Of a stretch of DNA of 64,000 nt, positions 2,291 to 53,155 are shown piece by piece. Position numbers and translations under genes: made by a program. Source of the stretch: Manis javanica (lineage: Eukaryota; Chordata; Mammalia; Pholidota; Manidae); contig NC_133174.1 in assembly GCF_040802235.1 (NCBI RefSeq), forward strand, positions 108,319,647-108,383,646, read 5' to 3'. Within the stretch, counting starts at the first letter, position 1; each line of letters opens with the position of its first letter. The notes below the pieces were generated by a model. The model did no database searches and had not been told where the DNA came from. It saw nothing but the letters and a program-made list of their open reading frames with translations.

Positions 2291-3340
2291 GCTTCTCTAT
2301 CTTTCTTTCCTTCTGTGTGTCTCATCATAGCTGTTCTGAGGCTGTTGGACCCTCTGAAGCATTTGCGTTTTACTATCATTAAAGAGTCCCATGGCTCACT
2401 CAATGGTGCCACATTAACTTTCAGACCACCGGGATTGTGTGTGATTCATTATTGCTTGACTAGCTCAGTTAATATTAACTGAGAATTTATTACGTGAAAG
2501 GCACCACAGGAAATGTAAATCCACCCCATTTCTGACTCTTTACTTTGGGCTGACTTACCTACCCTTCAACACACCCTGTGGGCCTGTGAAGCCAGACCCA
2601 AAAGCTAGCAGGCATTCCAGGCAATTGCTATGGTGTCTCTTGCCCCTGTTTAGTCCTGATCTGCTTTTGCTTGATCTTGTCTCCCTGGTTTTCTCCTTTT
2701 GCTGTGTACTCTGATTTTGATCATGTGCATCTTTGACCCCCACCCTTTCCAGGCCTTGATCTTTCCCTAACTTTCCGGTTGGCATTTGGACTTTGACTGG
2801 CATCCCTTCTGTCTTGGCTCACTACTTTGGCTCGAGAGTTTTCTATTGCCTCAGGTGAGAGTACTTCCTTCTTCATCCAGTTTTCCTGCCCGCTGGGTTC
2901 CTCACACTTTCCCAAGTGTGAATTCTGTCTAGCTGCATGAGTCATGGGGGCCCAGGGTGAGGGTGGGGTGAGCTTAGGGGTGTGCTATCAATTAAAAATT
3001 ATGCAACATAGCTTCCCACCCTCAGGGAGCTCACAATTCATTTAAAGAAAAAGAAATCAACCTTTTTTTTTTTTTTAAAAAAAGCAAGGAATGAATGGTA
3101 AGATCAAATAATTGATAATAGAAATACAACTTAATGTTAAAATTATCATCTAGTATTTAAAAAAATAGATCAGCTGAAAAATTATGTAACTATCAGAGGT
3201 GCCTGATTTATGAATTCAGCTCTCTTGGACAAATTGGGTCAATATGCTTTGCGGTTTTTAAATAATTTTATGATCAGTTTTTCTTATTTTATCACAAAAT
3301 ATTTTTTGTAGCTCATTTTCCTGTTAAGATCTTAATTTTA
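2291..3340. other. Non-coding stretch, no gene seen
   Basis: No gene or clear repeat family recognised. It contains a 16-base T run at about 3063-3078 followed by A-rich sequence. The last 200 bases before the old L1 are A/T-rich. Confidence 0.4.
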
Positions 3341-3489
3341 AATAAGCAAGTGGGACTACATCAAACTCAAAAGCTTCTGAACAGTGAGGGAAAACATCAA
3401 CAAAACGAAAATGCAGCCTACTAAATGGAAGAAGGAAGGTATTTGCAAATGATACGTATGATAAGGGGTTAACCTCCAAAATATATAAA

Positions 3490-3501
3490 TTCATACAACT
3501 C
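3490..3501 (+). repeat. Target-site duplication, left copy
   Basis: ttcatacaactc is repeated exactly at 9221-9232, directly after a poly(A) run. If two A residues before each copy are counted, the duplication is longer, but that part is ambiguous with the tail. Removing 3502-9232 restores a continuous old L1, which fixes the edges of the inserted element. Confidence 0.93.
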
Positions 3502-3748
3502 GAGCCAGGATGGCAGCGTGAGTAGAGCAGTGGAAATCTCCTCCCAAAAACACATAGAGCTATGAAAATATAACAAAGAAAACTCTTCCTAAAATAGAGA
3601 CCAGAGGACACAGGACAACATCCAGACCACATCCACACCTGCAAGAACCCAGCGCCTTGCGAAGGGGGAGAGGAAGGCCACAAACCAACAAGAAGGGAAG
3701 CTCTTCCAGCGGTCACTCGTAACAGCTCTGCAAACTATCTCTATCACC
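3502..3748 (+). promoter_or_regulatory. L1 5-prime UTR with internal gap (probable splice scar)
   Basis: In L1s this region carries the internal promoter. Here it is only 247 bases, while the related copy on the minus strand has about 1240 bases between the same start and ORF1. The first 166 bases and the last 80 bases have counterparts in that copy; the GC-rich middle is missing. The change falls in the G run at 3664-3668, where the other copy reads into GTAAGA (positions 50141 to 50136 on the minus strand). This fits loss of an intron before reverse transcription. Confidence 0.65.
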
Positions 3749-4608
3749 ATGAAAAGGCAAAACTACAGGCAGACAAAGATCACAGAGACAACACCTGAGA
3801 AGGAGACAGACCTAACCAGTCCTCCTGAAAAAGAATTCAAAATAAAAATCATGAACATGCTGACAGAGATGCAGAGAAAAATGCAAGAGCAATGGGATGA
3901 AGTCCAGAGGGAGATCACAGATGTCAGGAAGGAGATCACAGAAGTGAAACAATCCCTGGAAGGATTTATAAGCAGAATGGATAAGATGCAAGAGGCCATT
4001 GAAGGAATAGAAGCCAGAGAACAGGAACATATAGAAGCTGACATAGAGAGAGAGATAAAAGGATCTCCAGGAATGAAACAACACTAAGAGAACTATGTGA
4101 CCAAGCCAAAAGGAATAATATTCATATTATAGGGGTACCAGAAGAAGAAGAAAGAGGAAAAGGGATAGAAAGTCTCTTTGAAGAAATAATTGCTGAAAAC
4201 TTCCCCAAACTGGGGGAGGAAATAATCGAACAGACCATGGAATTACACAGAACCCCCAACAGAAAGGATCCAAGGAGGACAACACCAAGACACATAGTAA
4301 TTAAAATGACAAGGATCAAGGACAAGGAAAGAGTTTTAAAGGCAGCTAGAGAGAAAAAGGTCACCTATAAAGGAAAACCCATCAGGCTAACATCAGACTT
4401 CTCGACAGAAACCCTACAGGCCAGAAGAGAATGGCATGATATACTTAATGCAATGAAACAGAAGGGCCTTGAACCAAGGATACTGTATCCAGCACGACTA
4501 TCATTTAAATATGATGGCGGGATTAAACAATTCCCCGACAAGCAAAAGCTGAGGGAATTTGCTTTCCACAAACCACCTCTACAGGGCATCTTACAGGGAA
4601 TGCTCTAG
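3749..4608 (+). pseudogene. L1 ORF1 relic (nucleic-acid-binding chaperone protein)
   Basis: ORF1p is the trimeric RNA-binding chaperone that coats L1 RNA. The start ATG at 3749 follows ctatcacc and opens with MKRQ, as does the other copy here. An N-terminal heptad-rich coiled coil runs to about residue 95. An RRM-like part (NNIHIIGVPEEEE, from about 4111) and the C-terminal domain (ARREWHDILNAMKQKG, then YPARLSFKY) follow. The frame breaks near 4045-4054 in a GA-dinucleotide run. The reading moves from the first frame, which stops at 4085-4087, into the frame that ends at 4608. A two-base expansion explains this: 860 bases minus 2 gives 286 codons. No other nonsense change was seen. Confidence 0.85.
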
Positions 4609-4801
4609 ATGGGAGCATTCCTAAAAAGAGCAGAACAAAACACACAACATATGAAGAATGAAGGAGGAGGAATAAGAAGGGAGAGAAGAAAAGAATCTCC
4701 AGACAGTGTATATAACAGCTCAATAAGTGAGCTAAGTTAGGCAGTAAGATACTAAAGAAGCTAACCTTGAACCTTTGGTAACCACGAATCTAAAGCCTGC
4801 A
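4609..4801 (+). other. L1 inter-ORF spacer
   Basis: About 190 bases between the ORF1 stop and the ORF2 ATG, A-rich, with a stop-containing frame. Reading upstream from ORF2, the open frame extends to 4775 without an ATG. The ATG at 4802 (MAISTY) is chosen because the other L1 copy has its ATG at the same place. Confidence 0.6.
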
Positions 4802-7800
4802 ATGGCAATAAGTACATATCTCTCAATAGTCACCCTAAATGTAAATGGACTTAATGCATCAATCAAAAGACACAGAGTAATAGAATGGATAAAAAAGCAA
4901 GACCCATCTATATGCTGCTTACAAGAAACTCACCTTAAACCCAAAGACAAGCATAGACTAAAAGTCAAGGGATGGAAAAACATATTTCAGGCAAACAACA
5001 GTGAGAAGAAAGCAGGGGTTGCAGTACTAATATCAGACAAAATAGACTTCAAAACAAAGAAAGTGACAAGAGATAAAGAAGGATACTACATAATGATAAA
5101 AGACTCAGTCCAACAAGAGGATATAACCATTCTAAATATATATGCACCCAATACAGAAGCACCAGCATATATGAAGCAAATACTAACAGAACTAAAGAGG
5201 GAAATAGACTGCAATGCATTCATTTTAGGAGACTTCAACACACCACTCACCCCAAAGGATAGATCCACCGGGCAGAAAATAAGTAAGGACACACAGGCAC
5301 TGAACAACACACTAGAACAGATGGACTTAATAGACATCTATAGAACTCTACATCCAAAAGCAACAGGATATACATTCTTCTCAAGTGCACATGGAACATT
5401 CTCCAGAATAGACCACATACTAGCTCACAAAAAGAGCCTCAGTATATTCCAAAATATTGAAATTCTACCAAGCAATTTTTCAGACCACAAAGGTATAAAA
5501 GTAGAAATAAATTCTACAAAGAAAACAAAAAGGCTCACAAACACATGGAGGCTTAACAACATGCTACTAAATAATCAATGGATCAATGAACAAATCAAAA
5601 TAGAGATCAAGGAATATATAGAAACAAATGACAACAACAACACTAAGCCCCAGCTTCTGTGGGACGCAGCGAAAGCAGTCTTAAGAGGAAAGTATATAGC
5701 AATCCAGGCACACTTGAAGAAGGAAGAACAATCCCAAATGAATAGTCTAACATCACAATTATCGAAACTGGAAAAAGAAGAACAAATGAGGCCTAAAGTC
5801 AGCAGAAGGAGGGACATAATAAAGATCAGAGAAGAAATAAACAAAATTGAGAAGAATAAAACAATAGCAAAAATCAACAAAACCAAGAGCTGGTTCTTTG
5901 AGAAAATAAACAAAATAGATAAGCCTCTAGCCAAACTTATTAAGAGAAAAAGAGAGTCAACACAAATAAACATAATCAGAAATGAGAATGGAAAAATCAT
6001 GACAGACTCCACAGAAATACAAAGAATTATTAAAGACTACTATGAAAACCTATATGCCAACAAGTTGGAAAACCTAGAAGAAATGGGCAACTTCCTAGAA
6101 AAATACAACCTCCCAAGACTGACCAAGGAAGAAACACAAAAGTTAAACAAACCAATTACGAGCAAAGAAATTGAAACGGTAATCAAAAAACAACCCAAGA
6201 ATAAAACCCCGGGGCCGGACGGATTTACCTCAGAATTTTATCAGACACACAGAGAAGACATATATACCCATTCTCCTTAAAGTGTTCCACGAAATAGAAG
6301 AAGAGGGAATACTCCCAAACTCATTCTATGAAGCCAATATCACCCTAATACCAAAACCAGGCAAAGACCCCACCAAAAAAGAAAATTACAGACCAATATC
6401 CCTGATGAATGTAGATGCAAAAATACTCAATAAAATATTAGCAAACAGAATTCAACAGTATATCAAAACGATCATACACCATGACCAAGTGGGATTCATC
6501 CCAGGGATGCAAGGATGGTACAACTTTCGAAAATCCATCAACATCATCCACCACATCAACAAAAAGAAAGACAAAAACCACATAATCATCTCCATAGATG
6601 CTGAAAAAGCATTTGACAAAATTCAACATCCGTTCATGATAAAAACTCTCAGCAAAATGGGAATAGAGGGCAAGTACCTCAACATAATAAAGGCCATCTA
6701 TGATAAACCCACAGCCAGCATTATACTGAACAGCGAGAAGCTGAAAGCATTTCCTCTGAGATCGGGAACAAGACAGGGATGCCCACTCTCCCCACTGTTA
6801 TTTAACATAGTACTGGAGGTCCTAGCCATGGCAATGAGACAAAACAAAGAAATACAAGGAATCCAGATTGGTAAAGAAGAAGTCAAACTGTCACTTTTTA
6901 CAGATGATATGATACTGTACATAAAAAACCCTAAAGACTCTACTCCAAAACTACTAGAACTGATATCGGAATACAGCAAAGTTGCAGGATACAAAATTAA
7001 CACACAGAAATCTGTAGCTTTCCTATACACTAACAATGAATCAATAGAAAGAGAAATCAGGAAAACAATTCCATTCACCATTGCATCAAAAAGAATAAAA
7101 TACCTAGGAGTAAACCTAACCAAAGAAGTGAAAGACTTATACTCTGAAAACTACAAGTCACTCTTAAGAGAAATTAAAGGGGACACTAATAGATGGAAAC
7201 TCATCCCATGCTCATGGCTAGGAAGAATTAATATCATCAAAATGGCCATCCTGCCCAAAGCAATATACAGATTTGATGCAATCCCTCTCAAATTACCAGC
7301 AACATTCTTCAATGAATTGGAACAAATAATTCAAAAATTCATATGGAAACACCAAAGACCCCGAATAGCCAAAGCAATCCTAAAAAAGAAGAATAAAGTA
7401 GGGGGGATCTCACTCCCCAACTTCAAGCTCTACTACAAAGCCATAGTAATCAAGACAATTTGGTACTGGCACAAGAACAGAGCCACAGACCAGTGGAACA
7501 GATTAGAGACTCCAGAAATTAACCCAAACAAATACTGTCAATTAATATTTGATAAAGGAGCCATGGACATACAATGGCAAAAGGACAGTCTCTTCAACAG
7601 ATGGTGCTGGCAAAACTGGACAGCTACATGTAGGAGAATGAAACTGGACCATTGTCTAACCCCATATACAAAGGTAAACTCAAAATGGATCAAAGACCTG
7701 AATGTAAGTCATGAAACCATTAAACTCTTGGAAAAAAAACATAGGCCAAAACCTCTTAGACATAAACATGAGTGACCTCTTCTTGAACATATCTCTCCGG

Positions 7801-8612
7801 GCAAGGAAAACAACAGCAAAAATGAGCAAGTGGGACTACATTAAGCTGAAAAGCTTCTGTACAGCGAAAGACACCATCAATAGAACAAAAAGGAACCCTA
7901 CAGTATGGGAGAATATATTTGGAAATGACAGATCCGATAAAGGCTTGATGTCCAGAATATATAAAGAGCTCACACGCCTCAACAAACAAAAAACAAATAA
8001 CCCAATTAAAAAATGGGCAGAGGAACTGAACAGACAGTTCTCTAAAAAAGAAATAAAGATGGCCAACAGACACATGAAAAGATGCTCCACATCGCTAATT
8101 ATCTTAAAACTACAATGAGGTATCACCTCACACCAGCAAGGATAGCTGCCATCCAAAAGACAAACAACAACAAATGTTGGCGAGGCTGTGGAGAAAGGGG
8201 AACCCTCCTATACTGCTGAACAATGTAAATTAGTTCAACCATTGTGGAAAGCAGTTTGAGGTTCATCAAAATGCTCAAAACAGACCTACCATTTGACCCA
8301 GGAATTCCACTCCTAGGAATTTACCCTAAGAATGCAGCAATCAAGTTTGAGAAAGACAGATGCACCCCTATGTTTATCGCAGCACTATTTACAATAGCCA
8401 AGAATTGGAAGCAACCTAAATGTCCATTGGTAGATGAATGGATAAAGAAGATGTGGTACATATACACAATGGAATACTACTCAGCCATAAGAAGTGGAAA
8501 AATCCAACCATTTGCAGCAACATGGATGGAGCTGGAGAGTATTATGCTCAGTGAAATAAGCCAAGCGGAGAAAGAGAAATACCAAATGATTTCACTCATC
8601 TGAGGAGTATAA
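4802..8612 (+). pseudogene. L1 ORF2 relic (endonuclease and reverse transcriptase)
   Basis: ORF2p nicks target DNA and primes reverse transcription there. Domain order is visible. The endonuclease lies near 4802-5520 with [31 protein letters not shown] and SDHKG, all expected catalytic-site motifs. A linker follows, then reverse transcriptase with [26 protein letters not shown] and [12 protein letters not shown]. The catalytic FADD box reads FTDD, the Thr codon being 6900-6902. A C-terminal Cys-bearing domain continues past 8160. Breaks are: one extra base in 6259-6268; an A8 run at 7732-7739 that gains one A; a loss of about 14 bases near 8098-8106; and an early TGA at 8601-8603, three codons before the usual TAA at 8610-8612. 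The total span of 3.8 kb is normal for the family. Confidence 0.9.
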
Positions 8613-8678
8613 GAACAAAGGAAAAACTGAAAGAACAAAACAGCAGCGGAATTACAGAACCCAAAAATGGACTAACAG
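8613..8678 (+). other. Stub of L1 3-prime UTR
   Basis: This aligns with the start of the 3-prime UTR of the minus-strand L1 (44210 down to 44146): aacaaaacagcagc, then cagaaccc and atggactaacag. Alignment ends abruptly after actaacag at 8678. The other copy continues with ttaccaaaggg and about 260 more bases of normal L1 tail that are absent here. Confidence 0.8.
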
Positions 8679-9208
8679 AAGATCAAGGCCTAGCTTGGAT
8701 ACCCAGAAAATGAACTAAGATACGATATGAGGAGGAGCTTCCGGCATCAGCACTCTCTGGAGGACTTGTGCCAGGGGGATGATCAACAAACAGCCTCCAC
8801 AGGGATCTGGGCGATGCTGCGGTTGTGGCTGCATCCACCCCACCATTTCCTGGACTTGCCATTGGAATGAGGAGGGAGATGTCTAGGCTGGCATGTGCAT
8901 ACAGTGAGACAACGAATTTGACCGGATCTGCACTGTTGGAACTCAACCAGGAGTTGGGAAGTGTGCAAGTTGTAGCACTCCAAAATCTTATGACTATAGA
9001 CTATCTACGGTTAAAAGAACATATGGGATGTGAACAGATCCCAGAAATGGGCTGCTTTAATTTGTCTGATTTCTCTCAGACTGTTCAAGTACAGTTGGAC
9101 AATATCCATCATATCATAGATAAATTTTCACAAATGCCTAGGGTGCCTAAATGGTTTTCTTGGCTTCACTGGAGATGGATGGTAATTATAGATTTGCTTT
9201 GTTTATGT
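8679..9208 (+). pseudogene. Retroviral envelope transmembrane-subunit-like fragment fused to L1
   Basis: This sequence is unlike any L1 tail. One frame is open from 8783 into the poly(A), with a TGA just before it at 8780. Seen in order: a small hydrophobic stretch rich in Ala, Pro and Gly (fusion-peptide-like); a heptad-like helix with ELNQELG and ALQNLMTIDYL; a disulfide-loop motif GCEQIPEMGCFNLSD; a second helix; and a Trp-rich end WFSWLHWRW. That order is the usual plan of retroviral envelope transmembrane ectodomains. The family normally shows C-X6-C-C; here the first Cys of the pair is Gly. The membrane anchor and cytoplasmic tail are missing: the segment ends in poly(A). No AATAAA lies just upstream. 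Family placement is by motif memory only. Confidence 0.7.
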
Positions 9209-9232
9209 AAAAAAAAAAAATTCATACAACTC
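9209..9232 (+). repeat. Poly(A) tail and right target-site duplication
   Basis: Twelve A residues (9209-9220) are followed by ttcatacaactc (9221-9232), the exact copy of 3490-3501. The tail directly abuts the env-like part, not L1 sequence. Confidence 0.92.
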
Positions 9233-9416
9233 AACACCATAAAAACAATCCTATTGAAAAATGGACAGAGGAAGTGAACATTTTGCCAAAGAAGATGTAC
9301 AGATGGCCAACAGACACATGAAAAGATGCTCAACATCACTAACCATCAGCAAAGTGCAAATCGAAACTACAATGAGATACCACCTCACACCAGTCAGAAT
9401 GGCCACTATCCAAGAG

Positions 9417-9421
9417 ACAAG
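9417..9421 (+). repeat. 5-bp target duplication of solo LTR
   Basis: acaag at 9417-9421 is repeated at 9843-9847 on the other side of the LTR. Deleting one copy plus the LTR gives caagagacaagaaataatg, the expected continuous old-L1 sequence. Confidence 0.85.
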
Positions 9422-9842
9422 TGTCTTGCCAATGGGTTTCAGCCCTGGACAAGTTCACTGTGCATTCAATGTGACCAAAGAAATGACAGTAGAATGTTCT
9501 TGGGGTGAAAGGGTTATACCTACCCAACTTTATTCCCACGGTGGCAGGTCAATCACTAGAATCTCATCCACCCAGAGTGAGTCTACATGCAGCAAGCTGG
9601 TCTCTGCCTCTGGGCCTCTCTGACCCCACAGCCATCTCAGTCTCTGTCCTTGGCACTGCCACCACTCCAGTCTTGTCTCTGCTCTCCTGTAGCCTTGCAG
9701 CCCTGCCACCATGTCACTCAGAGCACTCGGTGGAGCTCTTTATATAGAGTCAGTAACAATGTATTGCCCACACGTGTGTAGTGAGCTAGCCAACTAGGGC
9801 CAGTTGAGAATCCTGGCTACAGGAACCTTCACTTTATCCACA
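9422..9842 (-). mobile_element. Solo LTR of an endogenous retrovirus
   Basis: A 421-bp insertion into the old L1 with TG...CA ends and a 5-bp duplication. On the minus strand a TATATAAAG box (9746-9738) precedes an AATAAA signal (9534-9529) by about 205 bases, the normal promoter-to-polyadenylation order, so the LTR points left. No internal retroviral sequence remains, so it arose by recombination between two LTRs. A 5-bp duplication is commonest in class III elements but is not decisive. Family not assigned. Confidence 0.85.
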
Positions 9843-43857: not shown

Positions 43858-43885
43858 ATTTATTTTTTATTTTTTTTAATTTTAG

Positions 43886-44210
43886 CATCATTAATCTACA
43901 ATTACATGAAGAACATTATGTTTAGTAGGCTCCCCCCTTCACCAAGTCCCCCCAATGCGCCCCTTCACAGTCACTGTCCATCAGCGTAGTAAGATGCTGT
44001 AGAATCACTATTTGTCTTCTCTGTGTTGCACAGCCCTCCCCATGCCCCCTGGCATTATACATGCTAATCATAATACCCGCTTTCTTTTTCCCACCCTTAT
44101 CCCTCCCTTCCCACCCATCCTCCCCAGACCCTTTCCCTTTGGTAACTGTTAGTCCATTTGTGGGTTCTGTGAGTCTGCTGCTGTTTTGTTCCTTCACTTT
44201 TTCTTTGCTC
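43886..44210 (-). other. L1 3-prime UTR, intact form
   Basis: Contains the short purine-rich block typical of L1 3-prime UTRs: on the minus strand aagggaaagggtctggggag and gggaagggagggataagg, a G-rich tract able to form a quadruplex. The position at 44146 is where the chimeric L1 on the plus strand leaves L1 sequence. Confidence 0.8.
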
Positions 44211-47200
44211 TTATACTCCACATATGAGTGAAATCATTTGGTACTTGTCTTTGTCTGCCTGGCTTATTTCACTGAGCATAATACCCTCTAGCTCCATCCA
44301 TGTTGTTGCAAATGGTAGGATTTGTTTTCTTCTTATGGCTGAATAATATTCCATTGTGTATATGTACCACATCTTCTTTATCCATTCATCTACTGATGGA
44401 CATTTAAGTTACTTCCATTTCTTGGCTATTGTAAATAGTGCTGCAATAAACATAGGGGTGCATCTGTCTTTTTCAAACTGGGCTGCTACATTCTTAGGGT
44501 GAATTCCTAGAAGTGGAATTCCTGGGTCAAATGGTATTTCTATTTTAAGCATTTTGAGGAACCTCCATACTGCTTTCCACAACGGTTGAACTAATTTACA
44601 TTCCCACCAGCAGTGTAGGAGGGTTCCCCTTTCTGCACAACCTCACCAACATTTGTTGTTGTTTGTCTTTTGGATGGTGGCAATCCTTACTGGTGTGAGG
44701 TGATATCTCATTGTGGTTTTAATTTGCATTTCTCTGATGACAAGTGATGTGGAGCATCTTTTCATGTGTCTGTTGGCCATCTGAATTTCTTCTTTAGAGA
44801 ACGTCTATTCAGCTCCTCTGCCCATTTTTTAATTGGATTATTTGCTTTTTGTTTGTTGAGGTGTGTGAGCTCTTTATATATTTTGGATGTCAACCCTTTA
44901 TCAGATCTGTCATTTATGAATATATTCTCCCGTACTGTAGGAGACCTTTTTGTTCTATTGATGGTGTCCTTTGCTGTATAGAAGCTTTTCAGCTTGATGT
45001 AGTTCTACTTGTTCATTTTTGCTTTTTTTCCCCTTGCCTGGGGAGATATGTTCATGAAGAAGTCGCTCATGTATATGTCCCAGAGATTTTTGCCTATGTT
45101 TTTTTTTCTAAGAGTTTTATGGTTTCATGACTTACATTCAGGTTTTTGATCCATTTCAAATTTACTTTTGTGTATGGGGTTAGACAGTGATCCAGTTTCA
45201 TTCTCTTACATGTAGCTGTCCAGTTTTGCCAGCACCATCTGTTGAAGAGACTGGCATTTCCCCATTGTATATCCATGGCTCCTTTATCGTATATTAATTG
45301 ACCATATATGTTTGGGTTAATGTTTGGAGTCTCTATTCTGTTCCACTGGTCTGTGGCTCTGTTCTTGTACCAGTACCAAACTGTCTTGATTGTTGTGGCT
45401 TTGTAGTAGAGCTTGAAGTTGGGGAGCGAGATCTCCCCCCTTTATTCTTCCTTCTCAGGATTGCTTTGGCTATTTGGGGTCATTGGTGTTTCCATATGAA
45501 TTTTTGAACTATTTGTTCCAGTTCATTGAATAATGCTGTTGGTAATTTGATAGGGATTGCATCGAATCTGTATATTGCTTTGGGCAGGATGGTGATTTGG
45601 ACAATATTAATTCTTCCTAGCCAAGAGCATGGGATGAGTTTCTATTTGTTAGTGTCCTCTATAATTTCTCTTAAGAGTTTCTTGTAGTTTTCAGGGTATA
45701 GGTCTTTCACTTCTTTGGTTAGGTTTATTCCTAGGTATTTTTTTCTTTTTGATGCTATTGTGAATGGAATTGTTTTCCTGATTTCTCTTTCTATTAGTTC
45801 ATTGTTAGTATATAGGAAAGCCACAGATTTCTGTGTGTTAATTTTATATCCTGCAAATTTGCTGAATTCCAATATCAGTTCTAGCAGTTGTGGAGTGGAG
45901 TCTTTAGGGATTTTTTATGGACGATATAATGTCATCTGCAAATAGTGACAGTTTGACTTCTTTACCAATCTGGATTCCTTGTATTTCTTTGTTTTGTCTA
46001 ATTGCCATGGCTAGGACCTCTAGTACTATGTTGAATAACAGTGGGGAGAGTGGGCATCCCTGTCTTGTTCCCGATCTCAGAGGAAAAGCTTTCAGCCTGT
46101 CGCTGTTCAGTATGATTTTAGCTGTGGGTTTATCATATATGGCCTTTATTATGTTGAGGTACTGGCCCTCTATGCCCATTTTGTTGAAAGTTTTTATCAT
46201 GAATGGATGTTGAATTATGTCGAATGCTTTTTCAGCATCTATGGAGATGATCATGTGGTTGTTGTCCTTCTTTATGTTGATGTGGTGGATGATGTTGATG
46301 GATTTTTGAATGTTGTACCATCCTTGCATCCCTGGGATGAATCCCACTTGGTCATGGTGTATGATCCTTTTGATGTACTTTTGAATTCGGTTTGCTAATA
46401 TTTTGTTGAGTATTTTTGCATCTACATTCATCAGGGATATTGGTCTGTAGTTTTCTTTTTTGGTGGGGTCTTTGCCTGGTTTTGGTATTAGGGTGATGTT
46501 GGCTTCATAGAATGAGTTTGGGAGTATTCCCTCCACTTCTATTTCTGGAAAAGTTTAAGGAGAATGGGTATTATGTCTTCTCTGTATGTCTGATAAAATT
46601 CCAAATAAATCCATCTTGCCCGGGGGTTTTGTTCTTGGGTAGTTTTTTGATTACCGCTTCAATTTCGTTGCTGGTAATTGGTCTGTTTAGATATTCTGTT
46701 TCTTTCTGGGTCAGTCTTGAAAGGTTGTATTTTTCTAAGAAGTTGTCAATTTCTCCTAGGTTTTCCATCTTGTTAGCAATAGGTTTTCATAGTATTCTCT
46801 AATAGTTCTTTGTATTTCTGTGGGGTCTGTTGTGATTTTTCCTTTCTCGTTTCTGATTCTGTTGATGTGTGTTGTTTTTCTTTTTCTCTTAATTAGTCTG
46901 GCTAGAGTCTTATCTATTTTCTTTATTCTCTCAAAGAACCAGCTCTTGGTTTCATTGATTTTTTCTATTGTTTTATTCTTCTCAATTTTATTTATTTCTT
47001 CTCTGATCTTTATTATGTCCCTCCTTCTGCTGACCTTAGGCCTCATTTGTTCTTCTTTTTCCAATTTCAATAATTGTGACATTAGACTATTCATTTGGGA
47101 TTGTTCTTCCTTCTTTAAATATGCCTGGATTGCTATATACTTTCCTCTTAAGACTGCTTTCGCTGCGTCCCACAGAAGTTGGGGCTTTGTGTTGTTGTCA

Positions 47201-48027
47201 TTTGTTTCCATATATTGCTGGATCTGCATTTTAATTTGGTTGTTGATCCATTGATTATTTAGGAGCATATTGTTAAGCCTCCATGTGTTTGTGAGCCTTT
47301 TTGCTTTCTTGGTACAATTTATTTCTAGTTTTATGCCTTTGTGGTCTGAAAAGTTGGTTGGTAGGATTTCAATCTTTCGGAATTTACTGAGGCTCTTTTT
47401 GTGAGCTAGTATGTGGTCTATTCTGGAGAATGTTCCATGTGCACTTGAGAAGAATGTGTATCCTGTTGCTTTTGGATGTAGAGTTCTATAGATATCTATT
47501 AAGTCCGTCTGTTCTAGTGTGTTGTTCAGTGCCTCTGTGTCCTTACTTATTTTCTGTCTGGTGGATCTGTCCTTTGGAGTGAGTGGTGTGTTAAAGTCTC
47601 CCAAAATGAATGCATTGCATTCTATTTCTTCCTTTATTTCTGTTAGTATTTGTTTCATATATGTTGCTGCTCCTATATTGGGTGCATATATGTTTATAAT
47701 GATAATATCCTCTTGTTGGACTGAGCCCTTTATCATTATATAATGTCCTTCTTTTTCTCTTGTTACTTTCTTTGTTTTGAAGTCTATTTTGTCTGATAGT
47801 AGTATTGCAACACCTGCTTTTTTCTCCCTGTTGTTTGCATGAAATATCTTTTTCCATCCCTTGACTTTTAATCTCTGCATGTCTTTGAGTTTGAGGTGAG
47901 TCTCTTGTAAGCAGCAAATAGATGAATCTTGCTTTTTTATCCATTCTATTACTGTGTGTCTTTTGATTGGTGTATTCAGTCCATTTACATTTAGGGTGAT
48001 TATTGAAATATATGTACTTATTGCCAT
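44211..48027 (-). pseudogene. L1 ORF2 relic, second copy
   Basis: ATG at 48027 (MAISTY) and TAA at 44213-44211 give a span of 3817 bases, close to a full ORF2. The endonuclease is intact up to about 46770 with [30 protein letters not shown] and SDHKG. Reverse transcriptase motifs remain: [29 protein letters not shown] and an intact FADD box near 45930-45945. Frame breaks occur near 46770-46790, 46540-46575, 45880-45905, 45640 and 45277-45300, among others. It is more decayed toward its 3-prime half than the plus-strand copy. Confidence 0.9.
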
Positions 48028-48218
48028 TGCAGGCTTTAAGTTTGTTGTTACCAAAGGTTCAAGGGTAGCTTCTTTACTCTCTGTCTAATTTAACTCACTT
48101 ATTAAGCTATTATAAATACAGTCTGATGATTCTTTATTTCTCTCCCTTCTTATTTCTCCTCCTCCATTCTTCATATGTTGGGTGTTTTGTTCTGTGCTCT
48201 TTCTAGGAGTGCTCCTAT

Positions 48219-49070
48219 CTAGAGAAGTCCCTCTAAAATATCCTGTAGTGGTGGTTTGTGGGAGGCAAATTCCCTCAACTTTTGCTTGTCTTGGAATTGT
48301 TTAATCCCTCCTTCGTATTTAAATGATAATCATGCTGGATACAGTATCCTTGGTTCAAGGCCCTTCTGTTTGATTGCATTAAATATATCATGCCATTCTC
48401 TTCTGGCCTGTAGGGTTTCTGTTGAGAAGTCTGATGATAGCCTGATGGGTTTTCCTTTGTAGGTGACCTTTTTTCTCTCTCTGGCTGCCTTTAATACTCT
48501 GTCGTTGTCCTTGATCTTTGCCATTTTAATTATTATTTTTCTTGGTGTTGTCCTCTTTGGGTCCCTTCTGTTGGGAGTTCTGTGTGCCTCAGTGGTCTGA
48601 GTAACTATTTCCTCCCCAAGTTTGGGGAAGTGTTCAGCAATTATTTCTTCAAAGACGCTCTCTATCCCTTTTTCTCTCTCTTCTTCCTCTGGTACCCCTA
48701 TAATGCAGATATTGTTCCTTTTCGATTGGTCACACAGTTCTCTTAATATTCTTTCATTTCTGGAGGTCCTTTTATCTTTCTCTGCATCAGCTTCTATGCA
48801 TTCCTGTTCTCTGGTTTCTATTCCATTAATGGCCTCTTGCATCCCGTCCATTCTGCTTTTAAGTCCTTGCAGAGATTGTTTTATTTCTGTAGTCTCCCTC
48901 TGTACTTGCTCCTTTAGCTCTTGCATATTTCTCTGCAGCTCTGTCAGCATGTTTATGATTTTTATTTTGAATTATTTTTCAGGGAGACTGGTTAGGTCTG
49001 TCTCTGCAGATCCTCTCTCAGGAGTTGACTGGACTATTTTGGACTGTACTAAATTTTTCTGCCTTTTCAT
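48219..49070 (-). pseudogene. L1 ORF1 relic, full length in one frame with two nonsense codons
   Basis: ATG at 49070-49068 (MKRQK) and TAG at 48221-48219 give exactly 284 codons with no frameshift. Two stops interrupt it: TAA at 48974-48972 (codon 33), where the other copy has GAA; and TGA at 48332-48330, where the other copy has CGA, a typical methyl-CpG decay. The coiled-coil region, the NNICIIGVPEEEE segment and the ARREWHDIFNAIKQKG C-terminal segment are all visible. It encodes the L1 RNA chaperone in active relatives. Confidence 0.92.
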
Positions 49071-50313
49071 GGCGATAGCGGTGGCTCTAGGCAGGTTGTG
49101 GATGTATCAGCTGGGAGGAGAAAGTCCTTTCCTGCTTGCTGGACACTTTGCCCTTCTCTGCTGCCTGTGTCGATTTCCCGCACTCCCGGAACAGCCACCG
49201 GGTTAATCTCCTAACCTTCTGTGAGCGGGGTCTCTGTCAGAGCAGTGCAGAGCCCTGCGGGGAGTGGGAGGCATGCCGGGTACACTCCTCCATGATAGCC
49301 GCGCCCCTGCCAGGGACCTGTGTCCCAGCAGCATCCTTTGGGTCTGGCCCAGGTGGCTGTGCGTCGGGCTGGGATTCCAGTCGGCTGCTGGGAGCGTGGC
49401 TGCTCCCTCTGGCACCGCTGCAGTTGTGCACGGGCCTCTACCGTGCCCCTCTGGCGCCATGGTCGCTGGCACATGCGGGCTGCTCCTGGGCCACTCAGTT
49501 GCTGCGGGCTCACATGGACCTCTCCCAGGCCCCTCTGGCACTGCAGTTGCTGGTGCACGCAGGCCGCTCCTGGGCTGCTTGGTCGCCACTGCGGCAGGCT
49601 TGCACGGGCCGCTCCCGGTCCTCTGTGGCGTAGCTGGCATGCACGGCCTGCTCCTAGTCCCCTCTGGCGCCACCACCCCTGGTGCACGCTGCCACTCTTC
49701 CACTACTGTGTTGGTGTCCGTTCCAGTTGGGGGAATGACTGGCAGGCTGCTTAGTGCTGTGAGGGGCTTCAGAGCTTCGCTGCCACCCAGGGAGTTAGGG
49801 TGCCTAACATTCCCTGGGATTCCCAGCTGCTGGCTAAGTGTGCCGGGACGACTTTGTCCAGCTGTGGGGTCCCTGTCACTTTAAGACTTGCAAAAAACAC
49901 TCGCTTTTCTTTTTTCTCAGGGGCGCCAGTTGCAGGGACCTGTCTGCAGGTTTTGCTTTTCCATTTCTCTAATATCCAGCCCCCCGTGCACCTTGTGTCT
50001 ATTCTCTGGATATGGATTTCTAGAGCTGGTTGTTTAGCAGTCCTGGGCTTTCACTCCCTTCCCATTCTGACTCCTTTCTTCCCGCTGGGTTCTGGGGTGG
50101 GGGAGTGTTCGGGTCCCACCGGTCTGCGGCTTATATCTTACCCCCTTTGTGTGATGTTGAGTTCTCACAGATGTGGATGTATACTGGCTGTTGTACTGTA
50201 TTCACTGGTGTCTCTTTTAGGAATAGTTTTATTTATTGTATTTTCATAAATATATATGTTTTGGGGAGGAGATTTGCACTGAACTACTCACGCCGCCATC
50301 TTGGCTCGGCCCC
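49071..50313 (-). promoter_or_regulatory. L1 5-prime UTR, long form
   Basis: 1243 bases upstream of ORF1. G+C is far above the surroundings in 49130-50150. It contains a block of short tandem monomers (49401-49693), a GTAAGA splice-donor motif at 50141-50136 and a plausible acceptor (ggcag|cagag) at 49161/49160. In L1s this region drives transcription. It has open frames on both strands without an ATG start at their outer ends, best explained by G+C richness. Confidence 0.8.
49401..49693 (-). repeat. GC-rich tandem monomers in the L1 5-prime UTR
   Basis: About seven imperfect units of 39-47 bp, starting near 49401, 49446, 49493, 49532, 49578, 49622 and 49662. On + each has cctctggc or a variant, then a tgcacgggc-like motif, then gctcctggg-like. 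The frame read on minus shows a repeating Pro-Ala-Thr, Glu-Gly, Arg-Gly-Pro-Cys pattern. Confidence 0.8.
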
Positions 50314-52649: not shown

Positions 52650-53155
52650 GTCAATGTTCCTTCTCAATACAGATATTTCAGGTATTTTCTAGTTTTATTA
52701 TAAGAGTAATGCACACAAATGGCAAAAGACTTAAAAAACAAAAAGTATCTAACTGTCTTCTCTCCCTAGTGGCAGGCATTGTTCATTTTTTTTGTCTGTA
52801 TGCTGACAGATATTTTCTATGCAAATAAAAGCATGGGTGTATATCCTCTTTTAAATACAAATAAGAACACATGTTACAAACTACTCAATGCATACTTTAA
52901 AAAAAATTTTGGTATCATTAGTCTACAATTACATGAGGAACATTATGTTTACTAGACTCCCCCCATCACCAAGTCCCCCCCGACAAACCCCATTATAGTC
53001 ACTGTCCATCAGTGTAGTAAGATGTTGTAGAATCACTACTTGTCTTCTCTGTGTTGCACAGCCCTTCCTGTGCCCCTGCTACATTATACATCAATGCATG
53101 CTTTTTAAAAAAGAAAACTTACTGTAATTATAAATCTTTCCATATCAGGACATAA
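52650..53155 (-). repeat. Probable old L1 3-prime end, interrupted
   Basis: Left 52650-52884 (ttttattataagagtaatgc, aaaagcatgggtgtatatcc) and right 53105-53155 (aaatctttccatatcagg) resemble an old L1 end. A younger L1 piece sits between them. Confidence 0.4.
52899..53090 (-). mobile_element. Very short 5-prime-truncated L1 of the younger type
   Basis: 192 bp of L1 3-prime UTR identical in type to the L1 at 43858 (ggtatcattagtctacaatt, accaagtccccccc, cactgtccatcagtgtagta, cttctctgtgttgcacagcc). Flanked by tcaatgcatacttt (52885-52898) and tcaatgcatgcttt (53091-53104), a 14-bp duplication with one mismatch. Confidence 0.92.

Follow-up and report, generated by a model that had tools for sequence, protein, structure and literature searches.

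In L1 3′ transduction, non-L1 sequence comes to lie between an L1 and its poly(A). Chimeras of two RNAs are also on record. Passages of two reports (PMC13174262, PMC4476161) describe U6/L1, U6/pseudogene and LINE-1 chimeras in which same-sense RNAs occupy one insertion flanked by target site duplications (TSDs) and ending in a 3′ poly(A), with the L1 or retrocopy as the 3′ part and the partner placed 5′ or inverted. For U6 joined to the 5′ side of an L1 or of an mRNA retrocopy, LINE reverse transcription with template switching is the explanation given in portions of PMC4476161 and PMC13174262, the latter also giving ligation as an alternative. The same part of PMC4476161 treats internal switching as inferred for U5 and as never seen for U6/L1. 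Human SpIREs are L1s with an intra-5′UTR deletion, splice-site edges, a kept ORF1 start and a TSD, as described in passages of PMC5860796. HERV-W processed pseudogenes are ERV RNAs copied by the L1 machinery, with poly(A) and TSD, and L1 mobilisation among HERV groups is said to be limited to HERV-W (both in excerpts of PMC5537654). The nearest arrangement noted is a pangolin ERV in which an L1 insertion separates env from the 3′ LTR (part of PMC12584738); it differs from the one presented below. The avian gamma-type (alpharetrovirus) TM was called bird-specific in 2013 (in a section of PMC3758190). No title or abstract opening among the literature matches listed concerned an L1 that ends in ERV env sequence.

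We present here a locus of that composition, found in the window, that is, the whole 64,000-nucleotide stretch of Manis javanica DNA that was analysed. Like the U6/L1-type and LINE-1 chimeras, for which template switching or ligation is likewise proposed in the passages cited above, it combines what appear to be two same-sense RNAs in one TSD-flanked insertion with a 3′ poly(A). In contrast to them, it places a near-complete L1 on the 5′ side and an ERV env fragment on the 3′ side. The locus resembles L1 3′ transduction in having non-L1 sequence before the poly(A) and differs from it in that most of the L1 3′UTR is absent. It shares the intra-5′UTR layout of SpIREs, with about 980 nt absent, splice-like edges, the ORF1 start kept and a TSD, whereas SpIREs are human and the L1 here is non-human, has sites of its own and carries an env 3′ end. 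The likeness to HERV-W pseudogenes lies in an ERV RNA that would have been copied by the L1 machinery, with poly(A) and TSD; here, however, no LTR part was recognised, and an internal env fragment is joined to L1. The features are as follows (window coordinates, strand, description).

3488..3501, +, left TSD AATTCATACAACTC, an exact repeat; the joined flanks form a continuous old L1
3502..3668, +, putative L1 start: 5′ end and first part of the L1 5′UTR (exon-1-like), 81% over 150 nt to the minus-strand L1 5′ end (50307 downward)
3669..3748, +, last part of the L1 5′UTR (exon-2-like), best fit to the pre-ATG stretch of the minus-strand L1
3749..4608, +, L1 ORF1 region, broken by a frameshift (ORFs 3593-4087 and 4042-4608; 4120-4545 matches the ORF1 part of protein P0088)
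4748..8612, +, L1 ORF2 region (endonuclease and reverse transcriptase) in several frames (PF03372, E 9e-24; PF00078, E 1.5e-46)
8613..8678, +, first 66 bases of the L1 3′UTR, after which homology to normal L1 stops (L1 comparison)
8679..9208, +, retroviral env piece from the SU/TM border to the start of the membrane anchor, with a frame change near the border (protein and profile matches)
8783..9208, +, open frame of the TM ectodomain (ORF and protein matches)
9209..9220, +, poly(A) of 12 bases, the last two common with the TSD (A-run in the sequence)
9219..9232, +, right TSD AATTCATACAACTC, an exact repeat
43860..50307, −, comparison L1 with a long 5′UTR and an ordinary 3′UTR (alignment to the insert)

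The window is rich in L1, and its L1s mark it as mammalian DNA. Positions 3502-9208 are one L1-type insertion in plus sense, and the host sequence is an older L1. The TSD is an exact 14-base direct repeat at 3488-3501 and 9219-9232, and this one pair encloses L1, env and poly(A) together. The initial annotation had reported exact duplications at 3490-3501 and 9221-9232, each of which proved two bases longer. Its reading of a single insertion, with L1 and env in the same sense and then poly(A), agrees with the one TSD pair, the 12 A at 9209-9220 and a continuous empty site. Joining the flanks 3340-3501 and 9233-9421 gives 351 nt of one uninterrupted old L1, with which four other L1 stretches in the window can be aligned along 350-351 nt at 73-78% identity. 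The longest word common to both insertion edges is 15 bases (the TSD plus one more A); a shared word of at least 15 was found in 10 of 20000 random same-size window pairs, overlapping and repeat pairs included, with a maximum of 26. A TSD and poly(A) around a single insert are the marks of an L1 TPRT insertion and, as judged within the window, L1 and non-L1 sequence were inserted together, in the order L1 then env instead of with L1 at the 3′ end and a partner at the 5′ end. By eye, the target reads TATAT/AAATTC or TATATA/AATTC, a loose fit to the TT/AAAA endonuclease site. Farther right within the older L1, a 421-bp segment (9422-9842) starts with TG, ends with CA and has the 5-bp repeat ACAAG on both sides; it may be a solo LTR.

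The L1 of the insert is a dead copy, since ORF1 and ORF2 (3749-8612) are broken into several frames. The minus-strand L1 (49004-44146) is 89% identical to it over 4901 columns, and the match stops exactly at 8678. Past that point the minus-strand L1 has an ordinary 3′UTR leading into an A-rich end near 43885-43860, which puts the insert some 260-285 bases short. The in-frame TAA of the ORF2 frame, at 8610-8612, stands at the same place as the stop in the other L1 and thus leaves 66 bases of 3′UTR; the insert itself has an earlier TGA at 8601-8603. These results bear out the earlier claims that the L1 departs from its own 3′UTR after 66 bases, that some 260 bases are missing and that ordinary 3′ transduction, in which the complete L1 3′UTR is retained, does not fit.

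Could the joint reflect unrelated events? The initial annotation had allowed that 8679-9208 might be the normal 3′UTR of a common L1 subfamily. Two other L1 3′ ends in the window (43878-44062 and 52905-53091) are 86% alike, ordinary and different from it, and we rejected a normal L1 tail. A nested env insertion was rejected as well, because the insert holds no remnant of the L1 3′UTR downstream of env and only one TSD pair is present. The same two observations stand against separate L1 and env insertions followed by a later exact loss of the L1 tail. Nothing was found in support of separate insertions or of a normal tail, and we regard this whole class of explanation as very improbable.

The insert starts where homology to the 5′ end of the minus-strand L1 starts, and relative to that L1 about 980 nt of 5′UTR are absent between 3668 and 3669. 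The best split alignment (score 171) places the gap within 1-2 nt of GGGG/GTAAGA on the left and CAGCAG/A on the right. GGG/GTAAGA is the top donor among 56 GT sites, at 7.7 bits on a donor scoring table (maximum, 12.6 bits). A second split 17-18 nt further on, near CCG/GTGGGA (rank 4, 6.1 bits on the same table), scores 169, and the acceptor side has no strong pyrimidine tract. Compared with the minus-strand L1, 3669-3744 fits best, of some 1240 positions, at the pre-ATG stretch, with 48 of 65 aligned bases identical; none of 1000 shuffles was as good, the global score itself being low (−13). The locus thus has the 5′UTR deletion with splice-site edges of a SpIRE, the edges being placed within 1-2 nt, beside a near-equal second split and against one comparison L1. 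Because the gap lies at the best-scoring donor, the L1 part was probably copied from a spliced L1 mRNA. A short-5′UTR L1 subfamily is a possible alternative to splicing, as a single long L1 served for comparison.

The 530 bases at 8679-9208 derive from env, in line with the roughly 530 bases of TM-envelope-like ectodomain reported earlier, and are truncated at LLCLC, the start of the membrane anchor. The frame at 8783-9208, for which a protein search had been proposed to place the env family, matches ASLV TM chains in PDB (phmmer E 1.5e-8), and a profile of 36 sequences matches ASLV TM at E 6.1e-16, which identifies an alpharetrovirus-like TM. Weaker PDB matches were the GP2 ectodomain chain 4n21, which we take to be snake arenavirus GP2, filovirus GP2 and syncytin-2. 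The env-derived part starts upstream of the 8783 frame, in another frame, where RYDMRRSFRHQHSLED at 8718-8765 resembles MKKNFQHQHSLEES of relatives; the first 39 bases (8679-8717) had no match to a relative. Homology to a solved TM places the segment with the gamma-type proteins, including the avian form. In common with that form, the best PDB matches are ASLV TM, and in the relatives P0050, P0072, P0075 and P0077 inspection by eye reveals a fusion peptide that lies internally, with cysteines on either side. In contrast to it, the host is a mammal, and the window has C-X6-G-C (CEQIPEMGC), the first C of the CC in CX6CC being replaced; relatives such as P0004 keep the CC. Cysteines also flank a likely internal fusion peptide, by eye, in P0076 as in P0050 and P0075, and P0081 has an ASLV-like TM sequence. 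The sources of P0050, P0075, P0076 and P0081 are a relative of the window env and records named Rhinolophus ferrumequinum (a bat) and Rhinophrynus dorsalis (a frog).

No Pfam family passed the cut-off for the env TM pieces, and Rfam at the gathering threshold gave no matches in the window, where no tRNA was found either. By tblastn with 101 proteins, the window holds no second env copy; the matches beyond 8600-9300 came from the L1 portions of P0088 and P0099. In the viral contigs, a viral set and not a test of the host, query A1, the joint pattern and P0054 were all without a match, and the window frame gave one weak match (L001, 38%), which was set aside. P0004 had no match in the genome contigs. 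In the protein collection, 35 of 46 candidates were 58-92% identical to the env frame, all of them from ENA contigs of 502 to 3481 bases; the profile retrieved 97 relatives of 3156, and the SU/TM border profile 53 of 6775. In a tree of 53 rows, the window env groups with P0003, P0010, P0014, P0035, P0042 and P0055 (support, 0.90); P0035 has a long branch, part of whose length is U6 and not env. These relatives and this grouping indicate a multicopy element with several subfamilies. A similar frameshifted tail, SS[ST]VGQY..YHR, closes four env copies (P0024, P0026, P0029 and P0042), a hint that coding ability was lost before copying or that frameshifts recurred.

Scanning the 97 proteins for a motif yielded 25 rows, from which P0082 was excluded as a chance match. 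By this count, which covers motif-caught relatives only, 24 relatives reach the end point of the window env: 23 continue into the anchor and tail and P0088 into L1 ORF1, and none has an A-run (lysine run) there. It follows that the poly(A) is no feature of the family but an addition made to an RNA. This bears on the possibility that an existing chimeric source was copied, either an L1 whose 3′UTR had been lost by DNA deletion or a ready chimera beside a same-sense env, its transcript being polyadenylated in env; ordinary 3′ transduction and one member of a chimeric family are variants of it. A single RNA would account for same-sense L1 and env in one TSD pair, and L1/env neighbours do occur. 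P0088 is an env TM fused in frame to a 5′-truncated L1 ORF1 (Pfam E 7.6e-18), and P0099 is an env fused in frame to an L1 3′UTR that agrees with the minus-strand L1 at 35 of 53 residues (tblastn E 1e-18), which ties at least the contig of P0099 to an L1 lineage like that of the window. In both, however, env precedes L1, the reverse of the order in the window, and either may have arisen by nesting of an L1, so they were not counted as proof. A source or family with this 3′ end is also at odds with the lack of poly(A) in all 24 relatives, and a source that shared the 5′UTR gap should have a weak promoter, as in human SpIREs (according to passages of PMC5860796). Copying of an existing chimera is thus conceivable, and we consider it unlikely.

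For the 3′ joint, the initial annotation had proposed a spliced read-through RNA or a template switch. In the former, an L1 upstream of an env locus would have had its 3′UTR spliced to an env acceptor, and the RNA would have been polyadenylated and copied in cis. It is in favour of this that the same RNA seems to be spliced in its 5′UTR and that cis- or trans-splicing is proposed for L1 chimeras, at their 5′ side, in portions of PMC13174262. At the 3′ joint, however, normal L1 reads ACA/GTTACC, which scores −2.7 bits (maximum, 12.6; one normal L1); farther downstream in the normal L1 3′UTR, the same table gives 4.5 bits for a site 31 nt away and 5.8 bits for one 51 nt away. A usable donor is thus lacking at the joint in this one normal L1, which speaks against splicing there, and read-through splicing appears distinctly unlikely. 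Template switching, the other option of the earlier proposal, or RNA ligation would need no donor site at 8678, and such joining is supported by a second fusion in the same env subfamily.

That fusion, P0035, is one protein from a 682-base contig. Its N-terminal part is an in-frame reading of U6 snRNA, identical to U6 at 34 of 35 residues as far as the U6 3′ end, where env TM sets in at once. This match scores 179 against a maximum of 45 in 500 shuffles; no other of the 97 proteins scores so, the next reaching 31. The N-terminus of P0035 had no match in PDB, and the passages available for the literature matches listed contain no mention of U6 joined to env.

We favour, at a probability of roughly 0.55, a fusion at the RNA or cDNA level between an env RNA and a spliced L1 mRNA, in one insertion event. 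The L1 reverse transcriptase would have made the insertion in one target-primed event from two RNAs, starting synthesis on an env transcript fragment with a short A-tail. The second RNA would have been an L1 mRNA with about 980 nt of its 5′UTR spliced out. The two may have been joined by a template switch from the env RNA 5′ end to the L1 RNA at 8678, or a cut L1 RNA may have been ligated to the env RNA fragment beforehand. Several points weigh against this reading. A template switch would have to land within the L1 3′UTR, an internal position in the L1 RNA. The canonical poly(A) signal AATAAA is absent from 8679-9208, where the scan for variants found only GATAAA (9119) and AATGAA (8709). The second 5′UTR split is near-equal (169 versus 171). 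P0035, finally, could be the product of a retroviral rather than the L1 reverse transcriptase, since snRNA copies tied to LTR retrotransposons are on record (in part of PMC4476161).

Beyond the initial annotation, the analysis adds the spliced-looking L1 5′UTR, the poor donor at the 3′ joint and the U6/env fusion in the same subfamily. In the described chimeras L1 lies at the 3′ end, which, we infer, is consistent with priming on its poly(A). An almost complete L1 on the 5′ side instead implies either that the machinery began on the other RNA before going on to copy an entire L1 mRNA, or that ligation placed L1 RNA ahead of that other RNA. We tentatively suggest, as a possibility that we hold to be rather unlikely, that the RNA of this ERV env subfamily is a recurrent substrate of the L1 machinery in this mammal, recombining with U6 (P0035), with spliced L1 mRNA (the window) and perhaps with other L1 RNAs in the other order (P0088, P0099). 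If so, HERV-W would be joined by a further ERV group that L1 mobilises, and L1 would here supply the 5′ part of a chimera in place of the 3′ part. Either way of joining would be a route for L1 to gain a foreign 3′ end and for env pieces to spread without their LTRs.
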